Source: Marasmius tenuissimus
Lineage: Eukaryota; Basidiomycota; Agaricomycetes; Agaricales; Marasmiaceae
Direction of reading: 5' to 3'
NCBI GenBank assembly: GCA_029532415.1
Contig: JAQOTA010000071.1
Coordinates: 1,426,001-1,490,000 of the forward strand
DNA: 64,000 bases
The notes beneath the pieces were generated by a model, which saw only the letters and a program-made list of their open reading frames with translations, was not told where the DNA came from and searched no databases. Of the stretch, positions 11,191 through 20,200 are shown in pieces (the first letter of the stretch is position 1; the number at the start of each line of letters is the position of its first letter). A program made the position numbers and the translations under genes.

Positions 11191-12160
11191 ATGCCTCCTA
11201 CCGACCGCCCTACAACTGAACCAGGACCTACAAATCCGACATCCAACGCCGCTTTTCAGCCTCCGAGCAATGACGACGAAGTGCCACTGGGGGCGATCGT
11301 GGGTGGTGTAGCCGGAGGGGTCTGTCTTGCTATCATAGCAATGTTGGTATGGAAGATCTGGCGCAGGTCTATGAAACGCACACGCATCGAAGAGGTGAGT
11401 TGGATCGAATGTAATGGTCATTGTTCAAGTAATCGATGAAATGAATGCACACCAGCAGGAGACCGTCTGCATAACGAGGCGAAACACATTGCGCAACAAG
11501 AGAGCTCCCGCTAAGTTGCAATCACAATCACCCATGTTGTATACGCCGGCTGCTGCGAAGGTGAAATGGGCAGCGTCCGAGAAAGACACACCCATGCCAG
11601 CAGATTGCAATCTGGTCGAAAAGAAACCGAAGGTTGAGGCGAGTGTGAAACCGGGGTTGACCGTGTCAACGACGAAGTCCAAAGAGAAGGATAACGAGCC
11701 TCCGGGAGGGTCGCCAACAACACCTTCCAGACCGAAACCTTTGAGGTCTACAAAATCGGCGGGCCAGGAAGCCAAACGGGCTTCGAGACGTCCTGCCGAT
11801 TTGACTCCGGACGTGAAGCTCCCAATTCCACCTCCTCCAACTTCCCCTCCTCTACGTGCTCCCCGACACAAGCCGTCGACCGTCAGCTCGAGGTCCTACT
11901 ACTCGCTGGAAAGCGGAGAGGAGTACCCAAACTCGCGCCCAGCTCGATTGCATTCCGTATTGTCTGCTTTGGGGAACTTGAGCGACGTAAGGACATCCGT
12001 ACATGGCGGGAATCGAGCATCCGTATCGTCCTCCATGTGGTCGTTCTTTTCCAGGAATAGTAGGGCGGCGCGGACGGTTGCTTCAAGTCGTTACTCCCAG
12101 GCGACGTCCAACTCCGTTTATTCTCAACCGGAAGACCCTATTGTCGGGGTGGCGTATTGA
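11191..12160 (+). CDS. Single-pass membrane protein with Mid2/WSC-like transmembrane segment
   Basis: Function not recognised. Two exons: 11191-11394 and about 11459-12160 (acceptor alternatives 11455 and 11458 both keep frame); about 300 aa. A short Pro/Thr-rich N-terminus of about 35 residues with no signal peptide is followed by a Gly-rich transmembrane helix (VPLGAIVGGVAGGVCLAII), a basic stop-transfer (RRSMKRTRI), and a cytoplasmic tail rich in Ser, Pro and basic residues. The helix wording resembles stress sensors of the Mid2/WSC class, but the Cys-rich or Ser-rich ectodomain is missing, so a type III (signal-anchor) topology is likely. The 3' part is duplicated as a relic at 15115-15435. 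Confidence 0.75.
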
Positions 12161-12895
12161 AGTTTGATGTTGATGATGACATGGCCGAGATGATTCTTTA
12201 TGAAGTACGGACTATTGAGGGTGGACTTTTGACTGAGGTTTTAATTCTTATTATGGTGGTTGACGAGAAGGACGATGAATGTAAAACGCAAGATAGGATT
12301 GCCTAGAATTTATTGTAACGTTTTGAAGTATACCTGGTGAGATATTGTCAGTGTGTTGGATCAAAGAATAGGTCTACGCGAAACTTACCTGCTCTGGAGT
12401 TCCTATCTCTCAGGCAATCTAATGCAGTCGTCAGACGTGACCTGCACGGATAACCGAACGCGAGAAAAACTCGGGAATAGGATTTTACTTCAGGGTAGTC
12501 CTGCAGGAGCCTCCGTGTTTGGCATCATTCAACTTTCGACCGAATCTCTTCCAGATCGCCAAAAAGTGCTACGCTGCTCTTCACGGCTCCAGCGAAATCA
12601 TCGCCACTTTCCTCATCAGCCATTGACTTCTGCTTCTCTGACGCACGAGCAATTTCGTCCTGGACCCCTTCCTCTGTCTTTCTCAACTGTTTGACGTCAT
12701 GTTCTATCCTTGAGCCTATGTGCTGGTCAATAGTTGACTGTCGTTCTGGAGTCGAGACACATGTAGCCTCTCAGTCTTTCAGCTGGTAATAGTTCGCGGC
12801 AACTGGAGAAGAACTTCAGCGCTTCAAACAAAGAACGAGAACGACGGAAGTGTACTTACCTTTAACAGGTCTCGTATCTGAAGAGTCTTGAAAGA
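11816..12895. repeat. Segmental duplication, left copy
   Basis: About 1.08 kb similar to 15115-16200. Shared landmarks in the same order are the tail of the membrane-protein gene, a 3' UTR segment around TGTAAAACGCAAGATAG, and MIC19 sequence on the minus strand including AATTTATTGTAACGTTTTGA. In this copy the membrane-protein gene is intact and MIC19 is broken. Boundaries were placed by eye where similarity fades. Confidence 0.85.
12314..12890 (-). pseudogene. MIC19 pseudogene (broken duplicate)
   Basis: Clear minus-strand counterpart of the intact MIC19 gene at 15540-16232. It retains the last-exon wording YFKTLQ-stop, the exon-2 core (ERQSTIDQH-like and VKSSVALF-like segments) and several splice sites. 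It has internal deletions in the cysteine-containing penultimate exon (about 35 bp) and at the end of the long exon (about 60 bp), many substitutions, and no recognisable first exon with the MGAS start. A functional protein is not possible without these parts. The limits are approximate. Confidence 0.85.
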
Positions 12896-13212
12896 GTGCA
12901 GGCCTGCCTGCCAAGCCGGCTCGTACGATGGCGGCAGTCTGCAGAATCCACGAGCATTCACCAGCACCGTATGAAACTATTCCTGATCATTCAGAGTCAC
13001 CATCTAAGGCGATATTGGAGGAACGAAAGAAAACAATCTGGGGCGATTGGGTCAAAGAACAAACGTTGCAACCATGCATGACGGGTACAAGCTACTTATA
13101 ATTATATACAGTTATCTTGACACGTTCGGCAGCCCGGCGAATCGAATAACAAAAAATCGTAATCTGAATCATGGATATCTCATGTTCTCTTGAGCCGAAC
13201 GCGCTGGACAGT
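12896..13212. other. Intergenic region downstream of kinase-like gene
   Basis: About 320 bp, no coding segment recognised; it follows the right end of the duplicated block. Confidence 0.4.
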
Positions 13213-14561
13213 CTATGGACAGGATATATCCCGTTCAATACCAGATGTGGGATCTCTCCGAGTCCGATCAAGAATATCGTCAAGTCGCTTCATCATCTCC
13301 TCGATCGTTGGCCGTGTCTCTGGTTTGCCACCGTCCTGCATCACCCAGGTCGCAAACAACATAAGCTCTTTGCGATGAAATGTACTTCGGACCTTTCGTT
13401 GCTTCAGAAGAAGATGAACGATATTGCCAATTGACCAAATGTCCGCGTATTTAGGGTGATAGGGCATTGGAAGGTCAACATTATTCTCTGTATCTGTGCG
13501 ATCCTCCCAATCGAACCAAAGGCGAATCTCTGGGGGTACGTATTTCAACGTCCCTACTGCACCCGTAGCCTTCGCGAGCAGGGGTCCCAGCTTGACCGGT
13601 GACCGTCGAACCGAGGTCGATCACAGTAAGACGATGTGGTTCCGCAGGGACTTGGAGATTATCCGGCTTGATGTCGAGGTGATAGAAATGGTGAGAATGT
13701 AGAAACTTGATAGCCTCGCAGAGTTGACGGATGAGCCGTGCAATCGCGTCTCCGTCGAATCGTAGACCGTATGGTGCGTCTATGGGAATCCCATAGTTGG
13801 GAGTCGCTATGAGATATTGGTTCGTTGGGAGGCGAGGAGAACAGAGGATGAGTTCGGCGACGTGGTGGGCATGCGGCTCGTGCGGTGCGAGTGCTTTGTA
13901 CTTCTCGAGTTCTCCGTGTTTGACCAGCTTGTACCATATTTTGGTTTGATCGTCGATGTAGCCTGGAGCTGCCTACAGATCGAATGGTTGAGAAGGATTA
14001 ATGTCTAGAACCATAAACTTCACGAAAGAGCCAAGCTTCAAGACATACCGTACAGCCTATCGTCATAATTTCTGCATTGTGCTTATTCAGAAAAAGCACC
14101 ACCTCACGAGATAGATATCGGTTTTCATCACCCTCTGGAATGTCAGAGATGAGAGAGGGCTCTTCAATAACCACGTTGAGGCAAGACCCATCGGACGGTA
14201 GTAGAGACCCTGCAACATCCAGGGTCACAGCCTCAAAAGAACACATCAAGTCTAAACCAGGGAGCTCTGCACGGCTCGGAACGCGACTGATGTCGTGGAT
14301 TGGGAATGGCCTATTGGGAGAGAGGAACCAGAGGTGATGAGGCTTGTACTGGCCTTGCCGCATGAGTTGAAGGATCTCGAGTGGAATATCGTAATCGCCA
14401 GAGAAGAGAACTTGGTGGAGGACGTCCTTGATGAAACAGGGCTTTGGAATCCGTACACGGACGAGTTTTATTCCAAATAGAAGGAAGACAACTAAAAATG
14501 GGGCCTGAGATAGATCCAGATACAGCCTTTTATCGGAGGGCTCACTAGTGACTGGAGACAT
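13213..14561 (-). CDS. Protein-kinase-like protein with divergent N-lobe
   Basis: Minus-strand gene, three exons: 14049-14561, 13597-13972, 13213-13556; 410 aa. The C-lobe is clearly kinase: catalytic loop FYHLDIKPDNLQV (near residue 270), a metal-binding DLG in place of DFG (LTVIDLGSTV), an activation-segment end KYVPPEIRL instead of APE, then ADIWSIGNIVHLLL. The N-lobe is hard to recognise: I see no glycine loop or VAIK-type lysine in the first 170 residues, although the exon carries EVVLFLNKHNAEIM. It could be an active kinase of a fungal-specific group or one with altered ATP handling. Intron 2 is only 40 nt; its donor and acceptor were chosen to keep phase into GTLKYVPPE. The gene lies between the two copies of the duplicated block. 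Confidence 0.75.
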
Positions 14562-15114
14562 GGCTCCTAGATTGAGGACGGTGGTGTAATATCAAGCCTT
14601 GATGATATAGAAGACCAACGCCTGAAATTTGAATATTCCCACGGGCATGCACGAGTATAAACTTTAGCCCGATTGGCCAGTACTACAGACAATTTCTTAC
14701 CATCAAGTTAGTCTCCTGAACCGGTGTCGTGTCCACTATAGTGACTACAGGAGCCATACTTCGAGCGAATAGGCTGCCTCTCGGAGACTAGTCGACAAAT
14801 GCTGGCCGTCGCTCTGACACAGTTCTAACCTGGAAGAACGCCAAAGATGTATAGGCTTACCTCGCCATCGTCCCTGTTCACTGCTCAGGCCTACTATCAG
14901 TATTCACGATCAACCTTTGAAATCAGGCTCTGTCATCGAAGAAGGGTTTCTGAAAGCCCCTCGGAAGGCTATCAGCATGGATCGGAAGCAGTTGCCTGAT
15001 GATGACGATGGGCGTGAACGCTGCTTGCAATCTCGTTGGGCGAAGAGGTCCTACACTGCACGCGTTGCTTGATAGAGCCTTTACATTTCCAGTATCTATG
15101 GCACGCTCCGAACG
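14562..15114. other. Intergenic region, no gene recognised
   Basis: About 550 bp upstream of the kinase-like gene. No coding motif or RNA gene seen. Confidence 0.4.
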
Positions 15115-15435
15115 CGAAGTTCCCGATCTCGGTCCTCAACTTCCCCTTCTCTACGCGCTCCTCGACACAAGTCGTTGACCATCAGCTCGAAGCGGAGAGG
15201 AGTACCCAGACTCGCGCCCAGCTCGACTGCATTCCGTGCTGTCTGCTTTGGGGAACTTGAGCGACGTGATGACGTCCATACATGGTGGGGATCGAGCGTC
15301 CGTATCGTCCTCTATGCGGTCATTCTTTTCCAGGAACAGCTGTTTATTCTCAAACGGAGAACCCTAGTGTCGGGGTGGCGTATTGAAGTTGTGACGTTGA
15401 TGACAATGGCAAAGCTGAGGTGATTCCTTATGAAG
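15115..15435 (+). pseudogene. Relic of the small membrane-protein gene (3' part)
   Basis: Plus-strand copy of the last 340 bp or so of the gene at 11191-12160, including the sequence that encoded the ARLHSVLSALGNLSDV region and the terminal VGVAY stop context. Two deletions are evident relative to the intact gene: one in the Ser/Tyr stretch before the LHSVLSALG part, and one of about 55 bp before the tail. The transmembrane segment and first exon are absent. It cannot encode the membrane protein. Confidence 0.85.
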
Positions 15436-16200
15436 TACGGACTATCGAGGGTGGACTTTTGGCTGAGGTTTTGGTCTTTATTATGGTGGTCGACGGAAAG
15501 AATGATCAATGTAAAACGCAAGATAGTATTGCATATAATCTATTGTAACGTTTTGAAGTATCCCTGGTAAGATATCGTCAGTGTGTTGGATCAGAGAAGA
15601 GGTACGCGAAACTTACCTGCTCTAAAGCACGCACGGACTCCTTAAACTTTCCTACTTCCCTCCAGCAATCCAATGCAGTCGTCGGATGTGACCTGTACGG
15701 ATATCATGAATGAACGTATAGACGCAGGAAAACACTTGACGCACCTGTAACACTCCAAAACGGCTTCTTGGTAGGATTTCACCTCAGGGTAGTCTTGCAA
15801 GGATCTCCGTGTCTGGAATCGTTCAATCTTCGACCGAATCTCTTCCAGATCGCCAAAGAGCGCAGCGCTGCTCTTCACGGCTCCAGCAGAATCACCCCCA
15901 CTTTCCTCCCCGCCAGCCATTGACTTCTCCTTGTCCAAGTTTTCTTTCTCCAACGCACGAGCAATTTCGTTCTGCACCTCTTCCTCCGTCTTTCTCAGCT
16001 GCTTAACCTCATGTTCTATCCTGGAGCGTATGTGTTGGTCAATAGTTGACTGTCGTTCTGGTGTTGGACCAGGTGTAGCCTCCCGGTCTTTCAGTTGGTC
16101 GACGACATCTGGAGAAAACTGGAACACTTTGAGCAAAGAGACGGAAATGACGGGAGTGACAAGTACCTGTATCGGCGTCTCGTTTCTAAAGACCTTTTCG
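15115..16200. repeat. Segmental duplication, right copy
   Basis: Partner of 11816-12895, same orientation, about 3.3 kb apart. Here the MIC19 gene is intact and the membrane-protein gene is a relic, the reverse of the left copy. Confidence 0.85.
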
Positions 16201-16232
16201 GATGAGCCCGCCGTCGACTGAGAAGCACCCAT
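15540..16232 (-). CDS. MIC19: MICOS complex subunit MIC19 (CHCHD3-like)
   Basis: Peripheral inner-membrane protein of the mitochondrial contact site and cristae organising system, which links MIC60 to other subunits. Exons on the minus strand: 16167-16232, 15745-16118, 15617-15692, 15540-15563; 179 aa. It starts MGASQSTAG, a context suited to N-myristoylation. This is followed by VFRNETPIQFSPDVVDQL, a central coiled coil (about residues 45-110) and a C-terminal CHCH-type half motif, CYRSHPTTALDCW, with cysteines in a CX10C spacing, then VGKFKESVRALEQGYFKTLQ. All junctions keep phase and the last exon codes for only seven residues. Its 3' half overlaps the duplicated block whose other copy is decayed. 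Length and motif order fit the fungal family. Confidence 0.93.
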
Positions 16233-17203
16233 TGCAAGGCTCAAACCCGCTTGCAACCGGAGAAGGAGTAGTTTGCCACGTGGAATGTGGGAATAAGTCT
16301 CTGACCGGTTACGCTGTAAACGCCCAAAGTCACCCCTCCTTTCTTTTCTCGAGTACTACCACGAAAAACCGGGGGGTAAACAGTCGTAGTTGACACTCAG
16401 TTGAGTAGTTATTTTAGCTGTCCTCCCGCTTGAGGAGCTTCAAGTTCGGGCTACAGAAAGCTACCGTGGGAGTAGGGTTGAGGGAAAACTTTAGTTTTTG
16501 ACCGAAAATGTTTTTACCGGTAAATTACTGTCACGTGGCCGGTCAAAAAGAGAGCTAAAAGTTTTTGACCTGGAGGCTGGATCACGTTGGCCAGGTATGG
16601 GAAAGCAAGAACTCAAATAGCGAACATTGAGGGGCGTAGGCCCAGGATACCCTCTGAGCTGCGAGCGCTGAGCAACCAGCTCGCTCGTGTCAATAAGCAG
16701 CGTGAAGCTTGAAGTAGATTGCCACTCGGAGTGAGTACTGTCAAAATTATTGTCATCTGATTCCCCATGGGCCGCGTGGGAAATTCACGTCAACGCGTCT
16801 CACCAGCCCAATCCAGGTCCAGAGGCAAGAATAAACCCCCCAAAACTCTCGTGTGTAACGGAACACCTCCCACTACGCGTCCTCAGCCAATAACTCACTG
16901 GCCTCGCGGCAGCGAGGTAAGAATTCGCGAAAGGGAAAGATCACGTGCTGGTAAATTACCGGTCAAAAACCCCAGGGTATGGCACGTGCCGGTCAAAAAA
17001 TGGGTCAAGAACTCGGCGGGAGTTTTTCACTCAACCCTACGTTCACCCTACGTGGGAGTTCGCGATCATGTGGAGGCTTTTCGAGCATGTGACTGGACGC
17101 GAGACCGTGGGACATCGAATCGCTCTTGCCGTCTTACGGTGACCATCTCATCCAAGTCAACTTTGGTCACCGCAAAGGCCACTCTTCTTCGCATTCTATC
17201 TCT
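16233..17203. other. Divergent intergenic region holding an inverted-repeat element
   Basis: About 970 bp between MIC19 (minus) and the RecQ helicase gene (plus). The plus frame open from 16767 runs into the first RecQ introns and has no family motif upstream of 17204, so I treat it as a shadow. The inverted-repeat element is listed separately. Confidence 0.5.
16472..17040. mobile_element. Candidate MITE-like inverted-repeat element
   Basis: The left end GTAGGGTTGAGGGAAAACT (16472-16490) is complementary, with one mismatch and one extra base, to the right end at 17021-17040. Just inside each end are further inverted matches: motifs of the form TTTTTGACCGG and GTAAATTAC next to TCACGTG occur on the left (16494-16560) and in reverse on the right (16940-17005). 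No transposase frame is present. About 570 bp with subterminal repeats suits a non-autonomous DNA transposon. No target-site duplication was proven. Confidence 0.5.
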
Positions 17204-20200
17204 ATGTCTGCAAGTGGCCCTAGAAACAATTTGGACGACGTACTGCGTCGAAGAAAGTCCAACACAACGCCATCCAGTTCTATATCCGCCCCGGTACCCG
17301 CTAGCAAGGTATCTGAATAAGCTTCATCGTGGTCAAGTCGATACTCAACGCTTGCTACAGGGATCAAAGTTCAAGCCCTCCAATTTCAAAGCTTCTACTT
17401 CCTCATCGTCGCTGTCGACAAGTGGTGCGTGATGCCAGCTTCCTGCACCAGCACATTTTAACCAAATTTCCCAGCGCGGAAACCTGCCCCCCTGCCCTCA
17501 TTCTCGACACCCGGTTTTGGGACTACCATCAAGACCATAGCATCCTCAAGCACAACTACTACCCCGGAAAGTTCATGCCCGGTAATTGATCTCTCCGACG
17601 ATTCACCTCCACGGCCACTACCAAGTCGCAAACGAGCATCGGACGCGTCGGATTGCCTCTCAGAGCTACCCCTTGTTACGAAGCGTAGTCGTGTTGACCC
17701 CACCGACGACAAAGAGAATGTTTCCGTTCGTCCAACGCCAGTGCAATCGTCAAAGGATAAAGGGAAGGCCAAGGCTCACCAACCGGTCTCTGCATCCCCA
17801 GTGGCCTCACCAAGGAGAAAGGGCAAGGACGAGGAGAAGGTGAAGCAAGATGTAGAGGGTCCGTGGATGCAAATGCCTGCTGATTGGAACCCTGACCCGT
17901 TTGCACGGTTGGATGTAGATTTTCCTGGTCTCGCGAAGAAGGGTGTTGAGATGCGTAAGGAGCACCAAGACCTCCTCGAAGTAAGCCCAAGTTTCTCGTA
18001 TCCTTCGTTTATACTCACGAAACATCCTCTAGTGCACGGCTGAACGACTACGGGACCTTTTGTCATGGAACGACCAGTCTCTGGCATCATTCGAGGGCAA
18101 GATCCGGGACTACAGGCGCTGTCCTGATCCAAGAGTTGACGTGAAGACACTTGAGGGATTTCAGTATGTGACACTCCTTCCAACGGCCTTTTCATGTGCT
18201 CAAACCCGTTAGATCAATCCTGACGGACAGGATATCCGCTATCAATGATATCTTGAACAAGAATATGCCCGCCCCTCCGTCTACCGACCCAATAGTCTCG
18301 CCTTACTTCAACATGGCCACCTCACATTCTGCTTCTTCGGAAGATCTGGTGACTCCGTCCAGCGACCACATACAGCCCAGTATGGACGATTCCAATGAAA
18401 TCGAGGATATCGAAGAGATTCGACGAAACGACGCACCACCGAGCGATGACATCTACTGGGAAGGTGTAGATGATATTGACATGGATAACTTTGACGACTC
18501 GTTCGATGACGAGCAACCCGAGGAACAAGAGCAAAGCTTCGCGCCACCAGTTGAAGAACCCTCTTCTCATCTCCGGCACAAAAGCAATCCCTACTATATC
18601 GAAGTCATGCGAAACCTCAAGGGAATCTTTCGTTTGGAAAGCTTTCGCAAAAATCAACTGGAGGCGATACTCGCAACGATGGAGGGCCGAGACGTTCTCG
18701 TACTGATGCCAACGGGTGGTGGGAAGAGTTTATGCTACCAACTTCCTGCTGTTTGCAGTGGTGGAAAGACGAAAGGGATCACGATTGTTATATCTCCCCT
18801 CAAGTCCCTGATGTCAAACCAGCTCACGTCTTTGCGAGAGAAGAACATCGACGTGATCGCCTGGAATTCGGAGAGTACCGACGTTGCCGATATTCTGCGA
18901 AGGTTGAGGGGGAGCCCGAAGCCAAGCCTGCTTTACGTCTCTCCAGAGAAGCTTAAGGAAAGCGGGCAGTTGAGGTCGATCATGCAATCTCTGCATAGAG
19001 GAAACGAGATTGCCCGTTTCGTCATTGACGAAGCGCATTGTATATCGACGTGGGGACAAGACTTCCGGGAAGCGGTGTGTGCTTCGTCATCAACTTTTTC
19101 TGCCTGTCGTTCTGATTTGCATTACAGTACAGTTGCTTGGGTAACCTTCGTCACGACTTCCCTGGTGTGCCTATGATGGCTTTGACTGCTACTGCAACGA
19201 CGGCGACACTGGCTGACATCAAGAAGCAACTCAAGATGAATTCGAATTTGGAGCATCTTACACAGTCCTTCAACCGCCCTAACTTAAATTACATCATCCA
19301 CGACAAAGGGAAAAAGGTGGTCGATAGCATCGCGGAGTTTATCCTCAATAAACACCAGAACCACACTGGAGTGATTTATTGCTTGGGGAGGGAGAAGTGC
19401 CAGAATGTTGCTAATTCGCTACGGATGAAGGGACTTACTGCACGACACTATCACGCTGGGATGGAATCGGCCGAGAAGGAGGAAGTGTTGAGCGAGTGGC
19501 AAACAGACAATTGTAAGATCATCGTTGCTACAGTAAGCTTCTCCGCACCCCGTCATGGGTTCGAGCTGAACTCGTCTTCTACAGATTGCCTTTGGTATGG
19601 GTATTGATAAGCCCAATGGTGAGTGCGGCTCTGTGACTAGAATTTTCCTAGCTCATGATCGAGTACAGTTCGTTTCGTCATTCATCATGATCTTCCAAAG
19701 TCTCTCGACGGGTGAGTGTCTCCTTAGATTGGCGACTATTCGTAGCCTCACACAGCCACCTAGGTATTACCAAGAGACAGGTCGGTTATTCCTGGATTTG
19801 CGCTTTCTCTTCTGGACCCTGATGTTGTTGTAGGTCGTGCTGGTCGAGACGGGAGGCCCGCAGACTGCGTGTTGTGTATGCCTTTTTGCCTATCTTTCCA
19901 CCTCGAGGATACTGAGAGACGTTTTGCAGATTACAGCTACCGGGATTTCAAGGCGATTGTTCGGATGATCAATAACTCCAACGAATATCAGTCGCAGGAT
20001 TCTCTCGATCGACAGGAAGCTGCGGCTCGTATGGTCGTCGGATACGTCTTAAACAAGTCAGATTGCCGTCGCGTGCAGTTGCTCCAGTTCTTCGATGAAA
20101 AGTTTGACCACAAATTGTGCCAACGCCGGTGTGACAATTGCACCAAGGACGGTCCTGTCGTTGAGCAGGACCTCACCAAAGAGGCTAGGGAAATCTTCGC

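Follow-up and report, generated by a model that had tools for sequence, protein, structure and literature searches.

Gene content of the locus and the duplicated segment

The locus was analysed in a 64 kb window, which is the whole stretch of Marasmius tenuissimus DNA under study, and includes a gene of a single-pass-membrane-like protein, a MIC19 gene, a kinase-like gene and the 5′ part of an adjacent RecQ-type helicase gene that served as a synteny marker (Table 1). The first-pass annotation had proposed that a block with the end of the membrane-protein gene and the facing MIC19 gene exists twice. Self-BLAST of the window confirmed this, with limits within about 11 bases of those proposed: the two copies form a direct repeat on the same strand (710 bits) and are the sole non-self pair at E<1e-5. 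On their common contig (C27, 2,478,824 bases), the second copy starts 3,301 bases after the first. The pairwise alignment of 1172 columns, 177 of them with gaps, has 850 identities, i.e. 850 of the 995 ungapped columns (85.4%).

Table 1. Features of the MIC19 locus (positions in the window)
Feature	Position	Strand	Remarks
Intact single-pass-membrane-like protein gene	11191..12160	+	Splice model
Left copy of duplicated segment	11805..12884	+	Codons 184-301 of the membrane gene, spacer common to both copies, MIC19 lacking its 5′ end; ends abrupt
MIC19 relic	12314..12884	-	No start, stops, frameshifting gaps
Stretch between copies	12885..15105	.	2,221 bases, flush with both copies, single copy as DNA
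Kinase-like gene (Pkinase PF00069), dispersed family	13213..14561	-	Frameshift between ~13550 and 13605
Right copy of duplicated segment	15106..16192	+	Self-BLAST, alignment
Membrane-gene relic	15106..15386	+	Tail only, codon 184 on
Intact MIC19 (DUF1690)	15540..16232	-	Exons 16232-16167, 16118-15745, 15692-15617, 15563-15540
RecQ-type helicase gene, 5′ part	17204..19077	+	Neighbour, synteny marker

The copies differ by 108 transitions and 37 transversions. Divergence varies from 9% to 20% along the repeat (overlapping 120-column steps), and the K80 distance over 283 noncoding sites is 0.192 (0.140-0.254). Repeat-induced mutation was considered as the cause of the transition excess and rejected, as CpG-type changes are nearly even between the copies (17 vs 14 of 108) and the CpG ratios are normal (1.06 and 1.02 in the copies, 0.95 in the window).

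Both ends of the repeat are abrupt and lie inside genes. The limit at 11805/15106 corresponds to codon 184 of the membrane gene, within the coding sequence, and the limit at 12884/16192 is located 40 bases inside MIC19. Stretches within the block that score as low as either flank were absent at lengths of 40 bp (0/91), 100 bp (0/85) and 200 bp (0/78), and a single one was encountered at 60 bp (1/88); at 40, 100 and 200 bp, both flanks stayed under the 95% level set by random window pairs. Homology is thus at background immediately past both limits, which indicates that the ends are real and do not result from eroded homology.

In searches of the assembly (71,056,785 bases, 70 contigs), the membrane-gene stretch and the stretch of the left MIC19 each matched the two copies at this locus and no other place, counts that are lower bounds, and all four MIC19 protein matches are located here. 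The Rfam search of the window gave no match, and the promoter/terminator scan, which is bacterial-style and uninformative for a fungus, did not exceed shuffle level.

A DNA search of the assembly with the stretch between the copies returned only the stretch itself, and no donor was found; its nearest protein relatives in the assembly are 31-48% identical over matched stretches. The examination for transposon ends revealed weak short repeats only. The first-pass annotation correctly noted a kinase-like gene in this stretch, but the gene is frameshifted against its paralogues. At least 27 further protein matches were found in the assembly (at least 19 in C19, at least 7 in C28 and at least 1 in C36). 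The C-terminal pieces occupy one frame in eight distinct open stretches representing eight paralogous loci and two frames here, which suggests, at the level of predicted reading frames, that this gene is probably broken like the relics beside it. Another element is located on the far side of MIC19: the stretch 16472-17043, between MIC19 and RecQ, is MITE-like, has an 11-base inverted repeat shared by its ends and has six other copies in the assembly with 91-96% identity, as well as shorter fragments.

Intact genes, relics and related genomes

The splice models and the lesions support the earlier view that the membrane gene is whole on the left and a relic on the right, and MIC19 whole on the right and a relic on the left. 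The right MIC19 has four exons with canonical introns and encodes 179 aa, matching Pfam DUF1690 (PF07956) with 88.7 bits at a cut-off of 29.7. Its residues 130/131-175 align to the MIC60-MIC19 structures PDB 7pv0/7pv1. The first 40 bases of the gene (16193-16232) and its promoter are located outside the repeat.

The left MIC19 relic lacks the promoter, the start, codons 1-13 and part of codon 14. It contains two in-frame TGA triplets, equivalent to codons 34 and 122, and a set of gaps with a net frameshifting effect. A 31-base gap removes the donor of intron 2 and codons 139-147; in the MIC60-binding end, codons 139-147 and 162-169 are missing or incomplete. Polarity of the MIC19 differences was scored against five relatives of 208 matches. 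In 27 of 29 differences, including the two stops, the right copy agrees with the relatives and the left one does not; the reverse was never observed, both copies agree in one difference and neither in one.

The intact membrane gene consists of exon 1 (11191-11394), one intron reaching 11458 (or 11455) and exon 2, which continues to the stop at 12160; the choice of acceptor sets the length of the protein at 301 or 302 aa. The product is 100% identical to M. tenuissimus AAF712_011188, barring one optional residue at the acceptor, and the Pfam search using the exon-2 ORF gave no match at E<=0.1. The relic on the right lacks codons 1-183 and the promoter and carries gaps of 20 and 53 bases plus two 1-base gaps. 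When its differences were scored against four relatives of seven matches, the intact copy agreed with the relatives in 13 of 17, the relic in one, both in two and neither in one. Amino-acid changes are biased to the relics in both genes.

A single-copy pair of MIC19 and the membrane gene had been anticipated in relatives, and this was borne out in part. As judged from locus tags, the two genes are consecutive in two of three comparable assemblies, as expected of a single ancestral pair: in M. oreades (MIC19 E1B28_011277, membrane gene E1B28_011276) and in M. crinis-equi (V5O48_006797 and V5O48_006796). In both, the contigs are equal in listed size. In M. tenuissimus AAF712, the tags of MIC19 (009351) and the membrane gene (011188) are not consecutive. 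RecQ and MIC19 of M. fiardii are found on contigs of the same listed size, as are RecQ and the membrane gene of M. roreri, where the listed MIC19 contig differs in size. Equal listed sizes suggest, short of proof, that the genes share a contig. None of the RecQ matches listed (120 of 210) is a helicase of M. oreades, M. crinis-equi or M. tenuissimus. AAF712_009351, which is located on a 211,217-base contig and whose number is not adjacent to that of the membrane gene, is annotated with a part of the first intron as coding (195 aa) and differs slightly from the MIC19 of the window.

Origin and timing of the mirror arrangement

The arrangement is probably the outcome of a local duplication, in direct orientation, of a stretch of about 1.08 kb that runs from within the membrane gene into MIC19. 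On the left, the membrane gene would have kept its native 5′ half, and on the right MIC19 its native 5′ end and promoter. The inner copies would have lacked start codon and promoter from birth and have drifted ever since, so that their truncation would be as old as the duplication itself. Since both cut points lie inside genes, only the outer copies could be whole, and the mirror pattern would be forced by the geometry of the event.

A plain tandem copy would abut its source, whereas the 2.2 kb between the copies requires an extra or a coupled event. The repeat ends at 12884 and 15106 directly border this insert, with flanks at background, and because the insert is flush with both ends, a single repair may account for insertion and duplication alike. 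The arrival of the segment with the kinase-like gene in the same break-repair event seems about as likely as its separate arrival. A fuller version, in which about 2.2 kb with a kinase-family gene went in and the 1.08 kb target was duplicated in one and the same break repair, in the manner of a very long target-site duplication, is put forward only tentatively. Such an event would have killed the inner copies of the two convergent genes at once and left the outer ones whole. Break-repair insertions with flanking duplications have reportedly been described by Vaughn and Bennetzen in 2014.

A less probable origin is a larger duplication that included both genes whole; a single deletion in the centre, where the kinase-like segment now lies, would later have taken the inner 5′ ends. 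This, too, would be one event for both 5′ ends, and the insert does occupy their exact place. However, one further step is required, and the insert contains neither the missing MIC19 5′ end and promoter nor the 5′ part of the membrane gene: scores of 20 and 23 were obtained against shuffle medians of 20 and 23. A central deletion could also have ended a brief functional phase of the inner copies, and here two yardsticks diverge.

With the first yardstick, mutation was calibrated on the 283 noncoding sites and nonsynonymous counts were simulated. For MIC19, 32.5 nonsynonymous differences were observed against 27.0 (15-40) or 29.4 (17-42) expected under neutrality since the duplication; for the membrane tail, 18.0 were observed against 17.3 or 19.1. 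For MIC19, a neutral period of half that length was rejected (0.000 and 0.002); the membrane tail gave a weak rejection (0.008 and 0.060). The noncoding yardstick thus favours neutrality throughout, against a central deletion.

The second yardstick, calibrated for MIC19 on the synonymous differences of the gene itself, points to some time under constraint for the left MIC19, as a central deletion would have it. Under neutrality of MIC19 since birth, the probability of a ratio at or below the observed one was 0.043, 0.020 and 0.010 at a functional omega of 0.05, 0.15 and 0.30, respectively; at omega 0.05-0.15, a neutral period of 50-75% of the total gave the better fit. For the membrane tail, neutrality since birth fits (P 0.443, 0.315 and 0.228). 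The yardsticks disagree because the synonymous differences between the MIC19 copies (12314-12884 vs 15540-16192) exceed the noncoding expectation (P 0.014-0.026). The Nei-Gojobori omegas, 0.25 (0.14-0.45) for the MIC19 pair and 0.39 (0.17-0.89) for the membrane tail, are below the value naively expected of a neutral relic, but the method ignores transition bias. Taken together, the timing tests lean, short of proof, to truncation at birth.

The first-pass annotation had interpreted the locus as divergent resolution, i.e. duplication of whole genes and subsequent independent decay by point mutations and indels, one gene in each copy. Stops, frameshifts and deletions do occur among the relics, but a dead copy of any origin would acquire such lesions, and the abrupt ends inside both genes are left unexplained. 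As the end points alone would force the pattern, independent decay is not needed, and this course of events appears very improbable. The suggested incompatibility between lineages is not supported either: it needs copies that separate in hybrids, and copies 3.3 kb apart, which by established genetics would rarely separate in crosses, can hardly do so. After a duplication of this kind, the opposite outcome would be closed to other lineages descending from it.

Continued expression of either relic, the MIC19-like stretch on the left or the membrane tail on the right, for instance within another transcript, is more doubtful still, judging by the DNA: the left copy has kept some readable splice signals, but the start codon is absent, two stops and frameshifts are present, the MIC60-binding end is damaged and the changes are biased to the relic. 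An assembly artefact or collapsed haplotypes, to which the differing AAF712 tags might point, can practically be dismissed, as differences at 145 of 995 aligned sites plus 177 gap columns are far beyond duplicated read error and each copy occurs once in the assembly.

Comparison with known systems

It seems that the locus is an ordinary partial duplication of a kind already known. In Katju (2012; PMC3449122), partial gene duplicates without promoter or start are described as "dead at birth", that is, non-functional at inception, and their duplication end points fall inside open reading frames, as in M. tenuissimus. The difference is that one segment here truncates two convergent neighbours, with the inner copies lost mirror-fashion. 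The same review presents Drosophila Sdic and Qtzl, which likewise stem from incomplete duplication over parts of two adjacent genes. Those duplications produced new chimeric genes, whereas the present neighbours are convergent and joined by their 3′ ends; no new reading frame arising from the duplication was found at this locus.

The maize p1 alleles (PMC3014980) resemble the locus in having inserted DNA beside direct duplications of local sequence. In M. tenuissimus, the insert and the repeat are longer and older, and the assembly yielded no donor DNA. Literature searches for Marasmius with segmental duplication and pseudogene, and for linked duplicates with divergent resolution, retrieved no publication.

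In the case of Mimulus pTAC14, divergent resolution involves copies at two loci, hl13 and hl14, and the working copy differs between two species (PMC5896889). Both there and here one working copy per gene is left, but in M. tenuissimus a distance of 3.3 kb separates the copies within a single genome, and those that lost out are truncated. Where the ends of a small duplication fall can decide which neighbours survive reciprocally, without divergent resolution, and checking the end points would be a simple test for genome scans before reciprocal loss is inferred. The locus could also provide a dated marker for the M. tenuissimus complex.
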